Source: Loxodes magnus (Eukaryota > Ciliophora > Karyorelictea > Loxodida > Loxodidae). From it: a stretch of DNA of 64,000 nucleotides. The notes below the pieces were generated by a model. It was not told where the DNA came from, did no database searches, and saw only the letters and a list, made by a program, of their open reading frames with translations. The stretch's first letter is position 1. Every line of letters begins with the position of its first letter. The DNA lies in assembly GCA_946699065.1 (NCBI GenBank), contig CAMPDV010000018.1:620001-684000 (forward strand). The letters are read 5' to 3'. Below are positions 53,945 through 62,743 of this stretch, piece by piece. The position numbers and the translations under genes were made by a program.

Positions 53945-56619
<2,675 letters not shown>

Positions 56620-57393
56620 TTTGATAAAAGTACAATAAATTAGTCTTGAAAATGAAGAAAATAATAAAGTTTCATTTTAACTTAACAAAATACCTTTTTA
56701 TATCTTTAGATTATTTGAAATAATACTTTCTAATCTATTTACTTTAGTTCAAAAATATGCTATTAGCTAAGCTTTATTTAATCATTTTTATATAATAACC
56801 ATTATTTCTACTTTATAGGAAAGAGTTCTTCTTTTCTACTTTTTGATATTTATAAGCTTTGTTAAGTGGATATATGATTTAGTGCATCTAGTAGAGCTTC
56901 TCTAGCTTAGATTATTATTAGGTAATTTCTGGATTTATTTAATCTAAAGACGAAGCTGTTTTTTGCAAAATTAGAAGTAGAAAATAGCCTATCGATGCTT
57001 AAAGTTAGACTTGAAGGAAATACAACTTAATATGGTTTGGTTCTGATTAGACAATTACCTAAGCCTTTCGCTAATTAATTTTATGATATGAATTTAATTT
57101 AAAATATACTTATTTCATTTAACTCTTTTTATAGCTAGGTGGAAAGGAACCTAACTTTCTTTAATCCATAATGGTGAAAAGATAGATACAATTTAATAAT
57201 AAAGCAATGTAGCTGATACTGGAGGCTTTAAAAACTAAATTTGAAGGTAAATAAAAAGTAGGAATAAAGTAGCCTGGACTTACTAATATTACAACTACTA
57301 TATAATTTTATATATTTAAATAAACTTACTTGCTTGATGAGAGTAATTATGGGAGGAGTTTTTTTAAATAATTGAATGGTAAATATAAAAATT
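56620..57393. other. spacer between snoRNA cluster and AGC kinase
   Basis: About 770 bases upstream of the kinase ATG (-), moderately higher in GC at 56880-57080 than typical spacers here. No C/D box pair or domain found on the minus strand. It probably contains the kinase promoter and the end of the snoRNA precursor. Confidence 0.4.
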
Positions 57394-57450
57394 TATCAGA
57401 GCAAGGATGATGTCTCATCAAAGTTATGAGAGATTCCTTCTCATCATGTT
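57394..57450 (-). ncRNA. box C/D snoRNA, cluster member 5 (target unknown)
   Basis: Minus strand: C box ATGATGA (57447-57441), internal C' TGATGA (57420-57415), D box CTGA (57399-57396), about 57 nt overall. The sequence before the D box, CATCATCCTTGCT, would guide methylation, but I do not recognise its rRNA target, nor that of the internal guide. It is called as a snoRNA from box spacing and its place in the cluster. Confidence 0.7.
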
Positions 57451-57464
57451 TAATAAAAATAAAA

Positions 57465-57525
57465 GATCAGATAGGAGCGAAAGTATTGTCATCAAAAACA
57501 GTGACTCATATTAAATCATCATTTG
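57465..57525 (-). ncRNA. box C/D snoRNA, cluster member 4 (28S AUAGGGGCGAAAG site)
   Basis: Minus strand: C box ATGATGA (57522-57516), C' TGATGA (57494-57489), D box CTGA (57470-57467), about 61 nt. The guide before D, CTTTCGCTCCTAT, pairs with the conserved 28S segment AUAGGGGCGAAAG over 13 positions with one G-U pair. By the D+5 rule the modified base is the second G of AUAGG. The internal guide target was not recognised. Confidence 0.8.
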
Positions 57526-57542
57526 TAAATAAAAAAAAAAAA

Positions 57543-57606
57543 GATCAGAGATCTTGGTGGCTAAAACTCATCAAGTTCAAGAGTAGCAAGTATATGTCAT
57601 CATTAT
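57543..57606 (-). ncRNA. box C/D snoRNA, cluster member 3 (28S AGAUCUUGGUGG site)
   Basis: Minus strand: C box ATGATGA (57603-57597), C' TGATGA near 57574-57569, D box CTGA (57548-57545), about 64 nt. The guide immediately before D, CCACCAAGATCT, is perfectly complementary over 12 nt to the 28S segment AGAUCUUGGUGG; D+5 predicts methylation of the C in AGAUC. The internal guide (ATACTTGCTACT) nearly matches the adjacent 28S segment AGUAGCAAAUAU, with one mismatch. Confidence 0.85.
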
Positions 57607-57641
57607 AATGTAAAATTTAATATTTTTGAAAAATTAAAAAA

Positions 57642-57702
57642 AGTCAGACAAATGCCTCGATGTAGTCATTAATAACTATTCGTCATCTCTCATCATATTT
57701 AA
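57642..57702 (-). ncRNA. box C/D snoRNA, cluster member 2 (28S AAAUGCCUCG site)
   Basis: Minus strand: C box ATGATGA (57696-57690), D box CTGA (57647-57644), a degenerate C' (ATGACTA), about 61 nt. The guide before D, CGAGGCATTT, is complementary to the universally conserved 28S AAAUGCCUCG; D+5 predicts methylation of the third A. A second stretch, AGATGACGA, is complementary to UCGUCAUCU, which directly follows in 28S, so the RNA could bracket one rRNA region. Confidence 0.85.
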
Positions 57703-57709
57703 TTTGTTT

Positions 57710-57765
57710 AATCAGATTGCAGTTAAATCGATCACGATACAGTCCGCCCGTTTGTCTTCATTTTA
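57710..57765 (-). ncRNA. box C/D snoRNA, cluster member 1 (18S UUGCAGUUAAA site)
   Basis: Minus strand: variant C box ATGAAGA (57761-57755), D box CTGA (57715-57712), C'-like TGATCGA, and flanking TTAA/TTAA that can form the terminal stem, about 56 nt. The guide before D, TTTAACTGCAA, is complementary over 11 nt to the conserved 18S UUGCAGUUAAA. An internal stretch, ACGGGCGG, is complementary to the 18S 3' CCGCCCGU segment over 8 nt. The weaker C box lowers confidence. Confidence 0.65.
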
Positions 57766-58072
57766 ATTATATAACCTGGAAAAAAATCTCGCTTAAATAC
57801 AGAGATTTTAAAGATGGAGGATGAAAAAAATTAAAGATGTCACATCAAATTTAATTAAAAAAATGAATTAAATAAACAAATATTTAAACTCTTTAAATCA
57901 TTTAAAGAAAGCAGTTTATAACTAAAATTATAGATCATTAGCACTTCTGATTTTCTTTAATATTCTTCTTTTAATATCTTTCAGTATTTTGAAAGTTACT
58001 TATTAATTAATTTTATAAAAGCAAACAAAGAAACAGATAATAAAGAATAATTAGTAAAATAAATAAAAGTCT
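57766..58072. other. spacer upstream of the snoRNA cluster
   Basis: About 300 bases between the stop of the second PAS protein (-) and the first snoRNA. Candidate location of the snoRNA promoter, unless the RNAs are cut from the 3' region of the upstream transcript. No motif identified. Confidence 0.4.
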
Positions 58073-61000
58073 TCAAGTGCTTTGGCTGTTTTTTTGAATA
58101 AGTTTTTTTATGTTAATTTGATCTAAAATAATTTGAAGTGGGATCATCGTGAGTAAACTTTATGTGTATTTCAGTTCATGAGCTAACTTCTTTATGTAGG
58201 TTTCAATGGCTAGCGGGTAAATTAAAATTAGGAGGATTATAAATAAAATGCAGACTAAGGTAATTATTTACTTCTAAGCTTGATTTTCATCTTCCATTAC
58301 TTGCATAATTTCTTGATTTAAGTATCGTAATGCAGGTAGCATATATTTATTCAAAAGTACGCTTTACTAAGCAAAAGAAAAAGAAAAATTTGAAGCTGAC
58401 TTTATGATTATACTTTCTAATTAATTTTTGTATGCAATTTCGGTGGTAAGTAATCCGTTTGGAACTGTCAAATCTTAGATAGTACTGCAATCATAATCAT
58501 CCATAAATGGAATTTAGTACTAAGCATTATAGGTCGATTAAAAGCTTTCATCTTCATATAAGTTACATTAGTCTTCTTCATAAATCTTGCGTACTAAATT
58601 GTTAAAGCTGTTAGGATAAATTCCAGTATTATCCATATGTGTTTAATAGTAATTCTTACTTTTTTTCATATTTTGGATAATTTCTTCCAGTACTTACCTT
58701 GATTTTCTAAGTAAAAGATCGTCTCTGCCTTTCGATTATAAATATAGACCAAGAGCCGAATCTGAAAAAGATAACTCTTCAATATTATTAGTTAGTACAT
58801 TTTTCTCTTCTTTTTGCTTATCAGACTTGTCTAAATATTTGATCCAACTTGAAAACTCTCATACATTATAGACTTGCATAAGCATTGAGAATAATATTAA
58901 AATTATAATAAAACGCTTTGTACCGGAAATCGAACCTCTAAAGACCTTCTAGCTTCTTTTTGCTTTAATCTTTTTCCCTTTTTTTTTAGGATTTTTCCCT
59001 TTCTTTTCTTATTTTTTCTTTTATTAGTTCTATTCCGAAACGATTACTTCTCCTTATAAGGATGCCGTTTAAAACTCAGCACTAGCAACATCAGAAGAAA
59101 TGATATTTTATTATTAAACTCCATTGAAGATCATGCTTTTTTGAATAATCTCTTTAATATCTTTATCAGGAATATCTAAGAAAACGGAAAATATTTTATT
59201 TCTATTTTAGTTAACAATCATTAGAGTAACTATTGTTATTAAACTTGAAACTCAGATTACACTAATTATAATAACAAAAGAAACTATTTCAGATTTGTTT
59301 GCTTCATCTATTATATCATCTTGCAAATTTTTAAGCACCTCTTCAGATTTCAACCCCGCTACGTAAATTCCATTTAGCGTATTTTTTAAAATAGATTCAA
59401 TAAAAGGGTTTCCTCTTTTAATTTCAGAAGCAGGTAGATAAGAAACAGACTAAGCAGCATTGATAACAATTTAGCTTGATTCGTAAAAGGTCAAATACTA
59501 TATTTATTATTCTAGCTAATTAGAGACATTTATATAAATAATAGTCTAAACTTTTAGCAAGTCTTCAACAGTTGATTCCTTTAAGACATAAAAATCATCA
59601 AGCATTTCATTTAAAGCCTCTTGAAATTTATTTGCACTTTCTCTTAAAATTTACTGATAAACTTCTGGTGTTTACATGCTAAGCAGATAGCGAGTTTCTG
59701 TGTCTAGATTATTTAGTTAATTTATTAAATTTACGAAGTCATCTAAAACTTGGCATTCAGTATTAATTCTATCAAGTCTATGTCTACCTAAAATCAAAAC
59801 AATGATTGCCATTCCTATTACTATCATTATCTGCAAATAAAGCGTTCATCTCAGTTGCGTTACAGATTTATGCTCCTTTTTGTTCGCTAAATTTTCACAC
59901 ATCTTTATTATTTTTTTCTTAGTAAAACTTGACTTATCATTTCCTACACTAGTTCCTCTTGATTTACTATCTTATTCACTGATAGGATTTAAAAGATCAA
60001 TAAGTTCATTTTCTGATGATGATCTATCTTCGTCTTTATTTTAATTAGCTATTTCAACAGTAAGTGCTGTTTTCAAAGTATTTTATGATTTAATGTTTTT
60101 ACCAAGCTTCGTTTCTTTCTTAGCAAATGTCATATTGTCTTCCTCTAAATATTTTTTGACCATTCCGAAATCATTATCTGACTCTCTATTTTGATAAGCA
60201 GAATCAATAAGAGCGTTTCTAGAAATTTAATTATTTATTTGGTCTTCTTTTATATACTCTTTAATATAGCTTTTAGGTATGATAAATTATCTTCTCTCAC
60301 TGTCTTAGAAATCTTAGAATTTTAGCTATCTGCAATAGATCCCCAAAGGTTATATATTCCTATCTACTAATTACAGATTACATTAGACATCATTATTCAT
60401 TATTCTTATTTTTGATGTTGGAGAATGAACTTCAACAGATACATCAGACTTGAAGTTAAAGGTAATCCCTACATCAGACTTAAGTTACTACCATTGATTT
60501 TCATTAAATTCTTTCAGTTAAGGAAGAACATTTAATATAGAAATTTGCTCTTACTATAATACCAAAGTATGTACAGGAATACCTAAGATTGCAGCTATTT
60601 TAGGAGTTGCTGATGTGATATTTAAATCATCAGTAAGGAGAAGATATTCTGTCTACATTTTCGCTGTTTTAAGAATGGCTATAAATTAGAGACCATTGTC
60701 AAAGCTACCAGCTGGCAAAACGAATTTAAACATAGTTTTTATATAACCTTATGCATGCAGAAGAGTCACTATTGCTCCTCAAATACGCTTCTTTCCAAGT
60801 TCCAGTTCAAGATAAATTTAAAGCAAGGAATTGTGAATTGACGAATAAGGTTTAGGAATCAAAACATTTATTGACTTGCCAATTAGTTCTTCTGGAAAAT
60901 ATCCCAAAGTATGTATTATACTCCTATTTACATTCGTAATAATTCCTAGACTTTATGGATTCATGCTTAAGTATATAGAAGTTGTGTTCTTTTTGAATAA

Positions 61001-62743
61001 ATGTTACTAAATATCAAGTTCATCTTTACATATATTGTGGTCTCTTTACATTTGATCATTTACAAGTTTGATAAGTTGCTAGGCTTCATAATCTCTGCCA
61101 ATTACTTAAGTTAAGTAATTAATCCTTGCACTTAGTAAAGCTCTATCTTTTATATTTATTTTACTTAAAATGTTCCAAAGATCTTCTACTATCTGCATTT
61201 ATTATTTTATTTTTTTAGCTCTATCATGCAGCTTCGCAATATCAATATTTGCACTTAGCAACATTTACCAAAATTCTATTGTATATCGAGAAGCCTTATT
61301 AGCATGAAATTCAAACTGAGGAAGAAGGCTTTCAAACTGCACAATGATTTCTAAGTTGGTGCTATTTTAGCTCTAAACCATCCGAGAAATATATTTGAGA
61401 ATTCTATATGATTTGTATCTGTTACCTCTAGTTTCTTTACTGGTTTAGCTTAGATAGCAGAAGTTTACTGCTAAATTCATATTCTTATCATATTCAATAA
61501 GAAAGAGTCCATAGTTAATTTTCAATTGGGTGCAAGATGGAAATAGCTATAGCAACCTTTTGTACTCATAGATTAGCACTTTTCTTAGCACTTACACATT
61601 CACTTCATTCAAGGAAACATTAACACTTATTTCTTTATACCTGCAGAAGCATCTTTTATCCTAGCAAGATTGAATATGTATTTTGAGTAAATCCTTGAGA
61701 GTATTAAGTAGCATCATATCAGGAATCCAAGAGTTAAAATTGTAAAGTAACTATTACAAATGCTATAAGTAATAGATTGCTTTCTATTCTGATTTATGTG
61801 ATTCCAGATAATAATCAATGCAACTTCTTTTGCTTCGAAAGAAAAGCAAAAATTATAATGGCATTGTAATTATCAGAGCATATAAGCTTTCTTTACCACC
61901 TATCAGTTCTAGAAGAAGAACAAAATATAGAAATGTGACAGTATGAACAAGCAATTTAAATGCATTACCAGAAAGATCATCATAAAAGATTTTAAATCTA
62001 CGAGAGTGTCTTAAAATTACCAAACCAAAAGCAAATCCTACTATAGCACTTAGTCATTAGCAAGCTCTGCTATGTGGACCAAAGCTTTTAATTACTAAAA
62101 GTGGAACTCTTCCTATAAAAGTCAATAGCATAGGTCTATTCTAATTTATTGATAATAGATTACCAGAAAACTCAAAGAATTCATAGTTAAACATCCACAG
62201 CAGCACCTCAACTACTAAAATTACCACACTAAATAGAATTCCTACCATAGAGTGTATTCAAAAGCTTCCTTAGTAGCATTTACTAAGCTCACATCTAAAA
62301 AGAAGCAAGCCAGTTTCAAAAAGAGGTTAAAACATTATCCACTAAAAAAATAATAAAATTCAGCTAAGAACATATTTCAAGACTTTTAATTTATATTTGT
62401 AGATATTTTGAATATAATAAGTAAGGAAGCTTAGCAAGCATAATAGAGAAAAAAGTATAGCAAAGGCAGTATAAAATCATATCAGATAACTATTTTCTGA
62501 AGAAATATGTCTAGAAACTCCAAAAAATTCTAAATACTACGTAACTAAGTATCATTCAGAGGATTTATCTTTATAACTAGTAGCTAGGTAAAACATTTAT
62601 AGTTGAGATAATATTATGATAAAAAGAGATTGAACTCTACCTATTTTTTAATTATTTAGCAACCAGTCAAAAAAAGTAAATAACCTCTTTTCAGTCTCAT
62701 TCATCACATGCCTAAAATTTATCTTTCCCTAAATTTCATCCAT
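58073..62743 (-). CDS. large PAS-domain multi-pass membrane protein (copy 2)
   Basis: 1556 codons in one frame, ATG 62743 to TGA 58075-58073, no intron. Residues 1-300 hold about six membrane helices (RVQSLFIIILSQLQMFYLA, FWIHSMVGILFSVVILVVE, YALIITMPLQFLLFF). A helical cytosolic block leads to a PAS domain near 590-640 (PQSLGIITNVNRSIIHTLGY then FPEELIGKSINVLIPKPYS) and the conserved continuation KMQTEYLLLTDDLNITSATP. A charged linker follows, then a second membrane part: a helix near 960 (IMIVIGMAIIVLILG), a long helical extracellular segment, a helix near 1150, and two more near 1275 and 1510. This is the layout of the ciliate PAS/TmcB-like family. Paralogue of 20245-24906. Ligand and partners unknown. 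Confidence 0.85.

Follow-up and report, generated by a model that had tools for sequence, protein, structure and literature searches.

A putative cluster of five box C/D snoRNA genes with a candidate upstream promoter element in the karyorelict ciliate Loxodes magnus

We analysed a 64,000-nucleotide (nt) stretch of the Loxodes magnus genome (assembly GCA_946699065.1; C18:620001-684000, hereafter the window) and identified, at positions 57396-57761 of its minus strand, a block of five consecutive box C/D small nucleolar RNA (snoRNA) units in the spacer between two protein-coding genes transcribed in the same direction. The analysis supports reading this block as a genuine C/D snoRNA cluster, a known kind of gene, with a strong case for units 2, 3 and 4 and a weaker one for units 1 and 5, as judged from the sequence. 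Very probably, the block gives rise to one short precursor from its own promoter, which is processed into C/D snoRNAs guiding 2'-O-methylation of ribosomal RNA (rRNA). The boxes, guides, spacing and conservation of units 2-4 on which this rests are directly visible in the DNA, and genome-wide searches covered the 705.7-Mb assembly of 7843 contigs.

Measured from C box to D box, the five units are 50-59 nt long and are separated by gaps of 15, 40, 22 and 19 nt (Table 1). In C/D snoRNAs generally, a C box (RUGAUGA) close to the 5' end and a D box (CUGA) close to the 3' end lie some 50-60 nt from each other, and an antisense element of about 10 nt or longer, complementary to rRNA, sits immediately before D or D'. 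A first-pass annotation, made from the letters alone, had described five C/D units of 56-64 nt on the minus strand between two minus-strand protein genes, with four exact ATGATGA C boxes and CTGA D boxes. Box scan and Pfam agree with this description: all five units carry the D box CTGA, four have the C box ATGATGA whereas unit 1 has ATGAAGA, and the extra length in the earlier description consists of a few flanking bases. Scanning both strands of the window with the box rule revealed 12 units, 5 on the plus and 7 on the minus strand, and five of these make up one chain when C box plus D box units are joined across gaps of up to 60 nt. By comparison, the longest chain in 120 synthetic one-strand 64-kb sequences (40 each of Markov order 1, 3 and 5) contained 2 units.

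To place the guides, ribosomal DNA (rDNA) was located via 5.8S in two copies, with the large subunit delimited by Rfam in sequence L023 and the small subunit in L024 (full 18S at 781-2453; target positions are in L024 numbering); the two large-subunit copies differ from each other. The D guide of unit 1 (57717-57727) pairs with 18S 554-564 (11/11), that of unit 2 (57649-57659) with 28S 1929-1939 (11/11; region of Am2281/snR13), that of unit 3 (57549-57560), which abuts the D box, with 28S 1189-1200 (12/12), and that of unit 4 (57471-57483) with 28S 700-712 (13 base pairs with one G-U; Gm908 region). All four pairings lie at the proper distance from the D box. Their scores were reached by 1, 1, 0 and 1 of 200 dinucleotide rRNA shuffles, respectively, and the 28S matches of units 2, 3 and 4 are also present on the second rDNA copy. 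Unit 5 has an 8-nt D-guide pairing whose score was reached by 77 of 200 shuffles and is not significant. The guides named in the first-pass annotation were thus recovered in the organism's own rRNA (12/12 for unit 3, 13 with one G-U for unit 4, 11/11 for unit 1), its 10/10 guide of unit 2 proved one nucleotide longer, and its view that such hits are unlikely by chance is borne out by the shuffles, with 0-1 of 200 for each of units 1-4. Second guides, beyond those it had named, were found in units 1, 2, 3 and 5. The second guide of unit 2 (57680-57688) pairs with the neighbouring 28S 1937-1945 (9/9; Gm2288/snR75 region) and the D' guide of unit 3 (57582-57593) with the neighbouring 28S 1202-1213 (12/12). 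A possible D' guide of unit 1 (57744-57751) pairs with 18S 1538-1545 (8/8; Cm1639/snR70 region), and a possible D'-side guide of unit 5 (57430-57438) with 28S 1974-1982 (9/9). The shuffle test covered the D guides. A 10/10 match of unit 4 to 18S 101-110 was not counted among the guides; it crosses the presumed D' box.

The strongest support for snoRNA genes comes from conservation at a paralogous locus, C180. BLAST of the block against its own genome returned seven places. Besides the block's own position, these comprise four C180 copies, one partial C125 copy and a short AT-rich stretch of C2869 (L015), which was rejected by eye as lacking boxes. C180 and C125 look like duplicates of the window's locus, and the order TmcB - snoRNAs - kinase is kept at all three (C18, C180 and C125). 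Kinase-gene DNA is 72% identical to the window at both C180 and C125, and TmcB-gene DNA is 71% identical over 1262 columns at C125 and 76-88% over stretches of 42-139 columns at C180. Across units 2-4, each C180 copy differs from the window by 1 substitution in 167 aligned positions (0/53 in unit 2, 0/58 in unit 3, 1/56 in unit 4) plus one gap column, which is the altered first base of the unit 3 C box (CTGATGA in C180). In the linkers, substitutions affect 17-19 of 72-84 aligned positions (21-25%), with a further 17-28 gap columns, and the contrast in substitutions between units 2-4 and linkers is marked (Fisher p 1.0e-8 to 8.4e-10). The four C180 copies arose by local, partly inverted duplication and are not independent of one another. 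The C125 copy retains recognisable versions of units 2 and 3 only; their C boxes read GTGATGA and ATGAGGA, and all four of their guides are intact. The guide RNAs are thus far better conserved than the adjoining protein genes.

These data also bear on whether an AT-rich spacer could hold C/D boxes and rRNA complements by chance. Single ATGATGA...CTGA pairs are no commoner genome-wide than the reversed pattern (8403 places vs 11065) and so are not enriched, which would suit a chance origin. Set against this are the chain of five units where synthetic sequences gave at most 2, the guide scores relative to shuffles and, above all, the conservation contrast between units 2-4 and linkers, and we regard a chance origin as practically negligible.

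Several observations nevertheless weigh against a processed cluster of five C/D snoRNAs. The linker between units 4 and 5 shows gaps but 0 substitutions in 14-19 positions, the C box of unit 3 is altered in both sets of paralogs (CTGATGA in C180, ATGAGGA in C125), neither unit 1 nor unit 5 is preserved in full in C180, and at C125 units 1, 4 and 5 cannot be recognised. Within the window, the D' boxes are degenerate, with one mismatch each in unit 3 (TTGA) and unit 1 (CTGT), and unit 2 has no CTGA-like D' box where its second guide (for G1939) needs one. Minimum-energy folding of the five units, each with its flanks, predicts no terminal stem, and their fold energies are no lower than those of shuffles (z -0.07 to -1.66). 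An Rfam search of the whole 64-kb window returned nothing at gathering level. Finally, T-runs between units would stop RNA polymerase III (Pol III), so that a Pol III origin would contradict a single precursor. The terminal stem of C/D snoRNAs is optional in several lineages.

The divergence of the outer units raises the further question of whether only units 2-4 are working, with units 1 and 5 as decaying or orphan copies. Compared with C180, unit 1 shows 10 differences, with 24 gap columns in three of the four copies and an altered guide and D box in the fourth; unit 5 likewise shows 10 differences, its D-guide half has diverged and its D box reads CTAA in two of the four copies, besides the non-significant D guide noted above. 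However, unit 1 in the window retains an 11/11 guide, the 9-nt D'-side guide of unit 5 is the same in all four C180 copies and hence matches 28S 9/9 in five of five copies, and the decay in C180 may reflect redundancy. We consider loss of function in units 1 and 5 somewhat unlikely.

Table 1 Features of the snoRNA locus in the window. Positions are those of the window.
Feature	Positions	Strand	Basis
Upstream box CTCCATCTT, candidate promoter element A	57811..57819	-	Sequence; TCCAT box at other clusters
TATA-like box TATTTAAGC, candidate promoter element B	57791..57799	-	Identical in four C180 copies
C/D unit 1	57712..57761	-	C box ATGAAGA, D box CTGA
C/D unit 2	57644..57696	-	C box ATGATGA, D box CTGA
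C/D unit 3, U24/SNORD24-like	57545..57603	-	C box ATGATGA, D box CTGA
C/D unit 4, snR60-like	57467..57522	-	C box ATGATGA, D box CTGA
C/D unit 5	57396..57447	-	C box ATGATGA, D box CTGA
Protein-kinase gene, part, downstream of snoRNA block	55441..56010	-	Pfam PF00069 E 1.1e-51
TmcB-type gene, upstream of block, several open stretches, last ending at 58073	58073..62053	-	Pfam TPR_TmcB E 2.1e-9

Applying the D+5 rule, the predicted D-box targets are 28S A1932 (unit 2), C1193 (unit 3) and G704 (unit 4) and 18S C557 (unit 1). Likely D'-side targets, which were read by hand and are less certain, are 28S G1939 (unit 2), A1205 (unit 3) and a position near A1977 (unit 5), and 18S C1541 (unit 1). We take the human counterpart of the site near A1977 to be Am3809, guided by SNORD79, and a literature search by those names found no paper. 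In yeast, methylated sites are Am2281 (snR13), Cm1437 and Am1449 (U24), Gm908 (snR60), Gm2288 (snR75) and Cm1639 (snR70) (PMC5344495, Table 2), and the U24 and snR60 sites are likewise given in PMC9045821. Equating the two numberings through local yeast sequence together with shared base identity and offsets, the predicted sites appear to coincide with those of U24, snR13/snR75 and snR60, and more weakly with that of snR70. The offset from C1193 to A1205 in unit 3 is +12, like that from yeast Cm1437 to Am1449, and the offset from A1932 to G1939 in unit 2 is +7, like that from yeast Am2281 to Gm2288. Neither 18S C557 nor the site near 28S A1977 has a counterpart in the yeast table (PMC5344495).

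A covariance-model scan, which had been suggested as a check on the cluster, was run at higher sensitivity. Across 57200-58000 it returned 17 matches up to E 5, all weak and all on the minus strand, of which 16 are to C/D snoRNA families and the remaining one to a microRNA family. The best match was SNORD24 (RF00069) on unit 3 (37.2 bits, E 1.4e-4), below the gathering score of 41. Unit 3 resembles U24/SNORD24 in carrying guides to both sites, of the Cm1437 and Am1449/Gm1450 type (12/12 and 12/12), and in its order of C box, D' guide, C'-like box, D guide and D box; it differs in this sub-gathering score, in having no terminal stem and in being one gene of a cluster. Unit 4 carries the D guide CTTTCGCTCCTAT for the Gm908 site, as does snR60, but its matches to ceN111 (26.1 bits) and snR60 (25.5 bits against 41) fall below gathering, and no Am817 guide is present among the six best matches listed for this unit, no search having been aimed at Am817. 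In having one guide per site, unit 2 resembles snR13/SNORD15 and snR75 (clan CL00045) together, which are two snoRNAs in the yeast table (PMC5344495) and would here be one 53-nt unit; the Rfam matches are weak, with SNORD15 at 18.4 bits on unit 2 and snR75 at 13.6 bits but around unit 5. U14 (RF00016) gave no match, but neither did it match anywhere as a control, so that its absence is not shown.

We also looked for other rows of C/D units in the genome. The tandem pattern ATGATGA...CTGA...ATGATGA occurs at 72 places against 1480 for the reversed control, and 33 of the 72 are by eye one repeated sequence; these counts show no enrichment, and the pattern served to find candidates only. Reading 32 of the 72 places with their flanks, and scanning 30 of these together with L001-L018 for D guides to rRNA, revealed C/D-like rows outside the window's own family at C8, C47, C51 (two copies), C73, C94, C112 and C597. 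One C8 unit (L027 1501-1555, C8:507931+) pairs 11/11 with both 18S 363-373 and 18S 153-163, which we take to be the regions of yeast Am436 and Am100, and another pairs with 18S 560-572 over 13 base pairs with one G-U. Further matches were seen at C51 (11/11 to 18S 1456-1466; 10/10 to 28S 942-951), C73 (10/10 to 18S 160-169; 10/10 to 28S 493-502) and C47 (10/10 to 28S 1081-1090), whilst none of the six units of C94, C112 and C597 showed an rRNA guide. Guide scores of at least 9.5 were reached by 11 of 21 units against 18 of 420 with shuffled rRNA, a proportion that is biased because the units of C8, C47, C51 and C73 were partly included on account of guide matches already seen in the scan; the figure is 7 of 16 without the five window units. 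At a threshold of at least 8.5, the counts were 12 of 21 and 54 of 420. A place on C289, lacking a TATA-like box, was dropped by eye and not run through the guide scan.

Upstream of unit 1 lie two candidate promoter elements (Table 1). The start of the TATTTAAGC box lies 38 nt ahead of the first C box, and the upstream box reads TTCCATCTT in the four C180 copies, so that TCCATCTT is kept. From TCCATCTT to the first C box, a hand count gives 4 changes in 57 bases relative to C180, compared with 19-21 in 98-99 across the whole of 57860-57762. In six of the eight clusters (C18, C8, C51, C73, C112 and C597), TATTTAAR is present in the 80 nt preceding the first C box; the C47 and C94 clusters lack it, so the signature is not universal; from its rate in the window (89 on both strands), the chance of an occurrence is 3.4% per 50 start positions and about 5% for the 73 scanned. 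TCCAT stands 18-19 nt ahead of TATTTAAR in four of the eight clusters (C18 with its C180 copies, C8, C51 and C73), and also at C3, although C3 was picked by that very pattern. The combined pattern TCCATN{13,14}TATTTAAR has one occurrence in the window, at this block, where 0.10 were expected and 9 of 100 shuffles had at least one. Followed by TGATGA, it has 8 genomic occurrences, compared with 1 for the reversed control. Among these 8, two are the known clusters C8 and C73, and C3 is a single C/D-like unit with no clear rRNA guide. The places on C12 and C1060 and one on C626 were not snoRNA-like on reading, and a second C626 place and one on C7667 have the same matched letters as the rejected C626 place. 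TATTTAAR is a candidate element, which may be specific to snoRNA genes or general to genes transcribed by RNA polymerase II (Pol II).

For comparison, genes for the small nuclear RNAs (snRNAs) U2 (5 of 29 matches) and U6 (6 of 29) were read, and these share a different upstream element containing ACCTTAATA. This motif, which in most cases has AAATAA directly behind it, begins some 54-60 nt ahead of the U2 or U6 RNA and is itself a candidate promoter element of both snRNA classes. We propose, tentatively and with slightly less than even confidence, that C/D clusters have a promoter class of their own, apart from the U2/U6 element, in which TCCAT stands 18-19 nt before TATTTAAR and the first C box follows after roughly 30-55 nt, that across two duplications of the locus the present cluster has kept its place between these two genes, and that its two-site guide merges the roles of snR13 and snR75.

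We infer that Pol II acts from the upstream element: the block would be transcribed as one short precursor RNA from its own promoter, and the precursor would be cut and trimmed into separate C/D-box snoRNAs. Each would assemble with the C/D proteins fibrillarin, Nop56, Nop58 and Snu13 and direct 2'-O-methylation of the rRNA base pairing five positions upstream of the D or D' box. Alternatively, these could be real C/D snoRNAs that have no independent gene and are cut out of the kinase transcript, from its leader or an intron within that leader, or out of the upstream gene's trailer; that both neighbours lie on the same strand and that the TmcB-snoRNA-kinase order is kept at C18, C180 and C125 would suit such an origin. 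The conserved element directly upstream of unit 1 argues otherwise, as it recurs before some other clusters and is kept in all four C180 copies, which arose by local, partly inverted duplication, and we consider release from a neighbour's transcript unlikely.

Separate transcription of each unit, for example by Pol III ending at T-runs after the D boxes, would account for the runs of 7 and 12 T after units 2 and 3 in the window. In C180, however, the 7-T run after unit 2 is kept in one copy and broken in three, and 4-6 T follow unit 3; being so variable, these runs are unlikely to be required terminators. Moreover, the only promoter-like element observed stands ahead of unit 1 (no search was made for internal A/B boxes), and the gaps of 15-40 nt leave little room for others. 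Separate transcription of each unit is very unlikely, and a single Pol II precursor, in line with the spacing, the single upstream element and the preserved co-linearity, remains our preferred explanation. Polycistronic snoRNA clusters also occur in trypanosomatids and some protists. Plant and fungal clusters have their own promoter and give polycistronic transcripts, according to PMC12309372; the block is like them in that short linkers join several consecutive C/D units, and differs in belonging to another lineage and in a candidate promoter that matches none we could name.

Karyorelicts are a deep branch of the ciliates with an unusual genetic code, and the present locus suggests that in this group snoRNA genes can stand in rows between protein-coding ones. 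Searches of open-licence papers, in which a paper pairing Loxodes with just one of the snoRNA terms could be missed, turned up no account of karyorelict snoRNAs, and the word snoRNA has 0 occurrences in the main text of the Loxodes genome paper (PMC11441545). The cluster supplies named predicted methylation sites, and its upstream element offers a sequence handle for finding further members of the set. The cluster also illustrates clearly how small non-coding genes can be conserved far beyond the adjoining protein genes. Further attention should go to the candidate promoter and to unit 2 with its two sites.

Translating TAA and TAG as Gln, as in code 27, keeps the coding stretches in the window open. 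Within the TmcB-type gene, a PAS-like stretch scored 22.5 bits against the Pfam cut-off of 22.6, and the last open stretch (58073-58858) had no Pfam match. The TmcB-like and kinase genes have apparently been duplicated jointly at least twice (71-72% DNA identity over the longer stretches), with further partly inverted duplications within C180. Genes for U2 (29 matches; C120, C515 and C2784) and U3 (57 matches; C888, C1544, C488 and others) are present in many copies, and on some contigs the U2 copies stand in closely spaced pairs on opposite strands.
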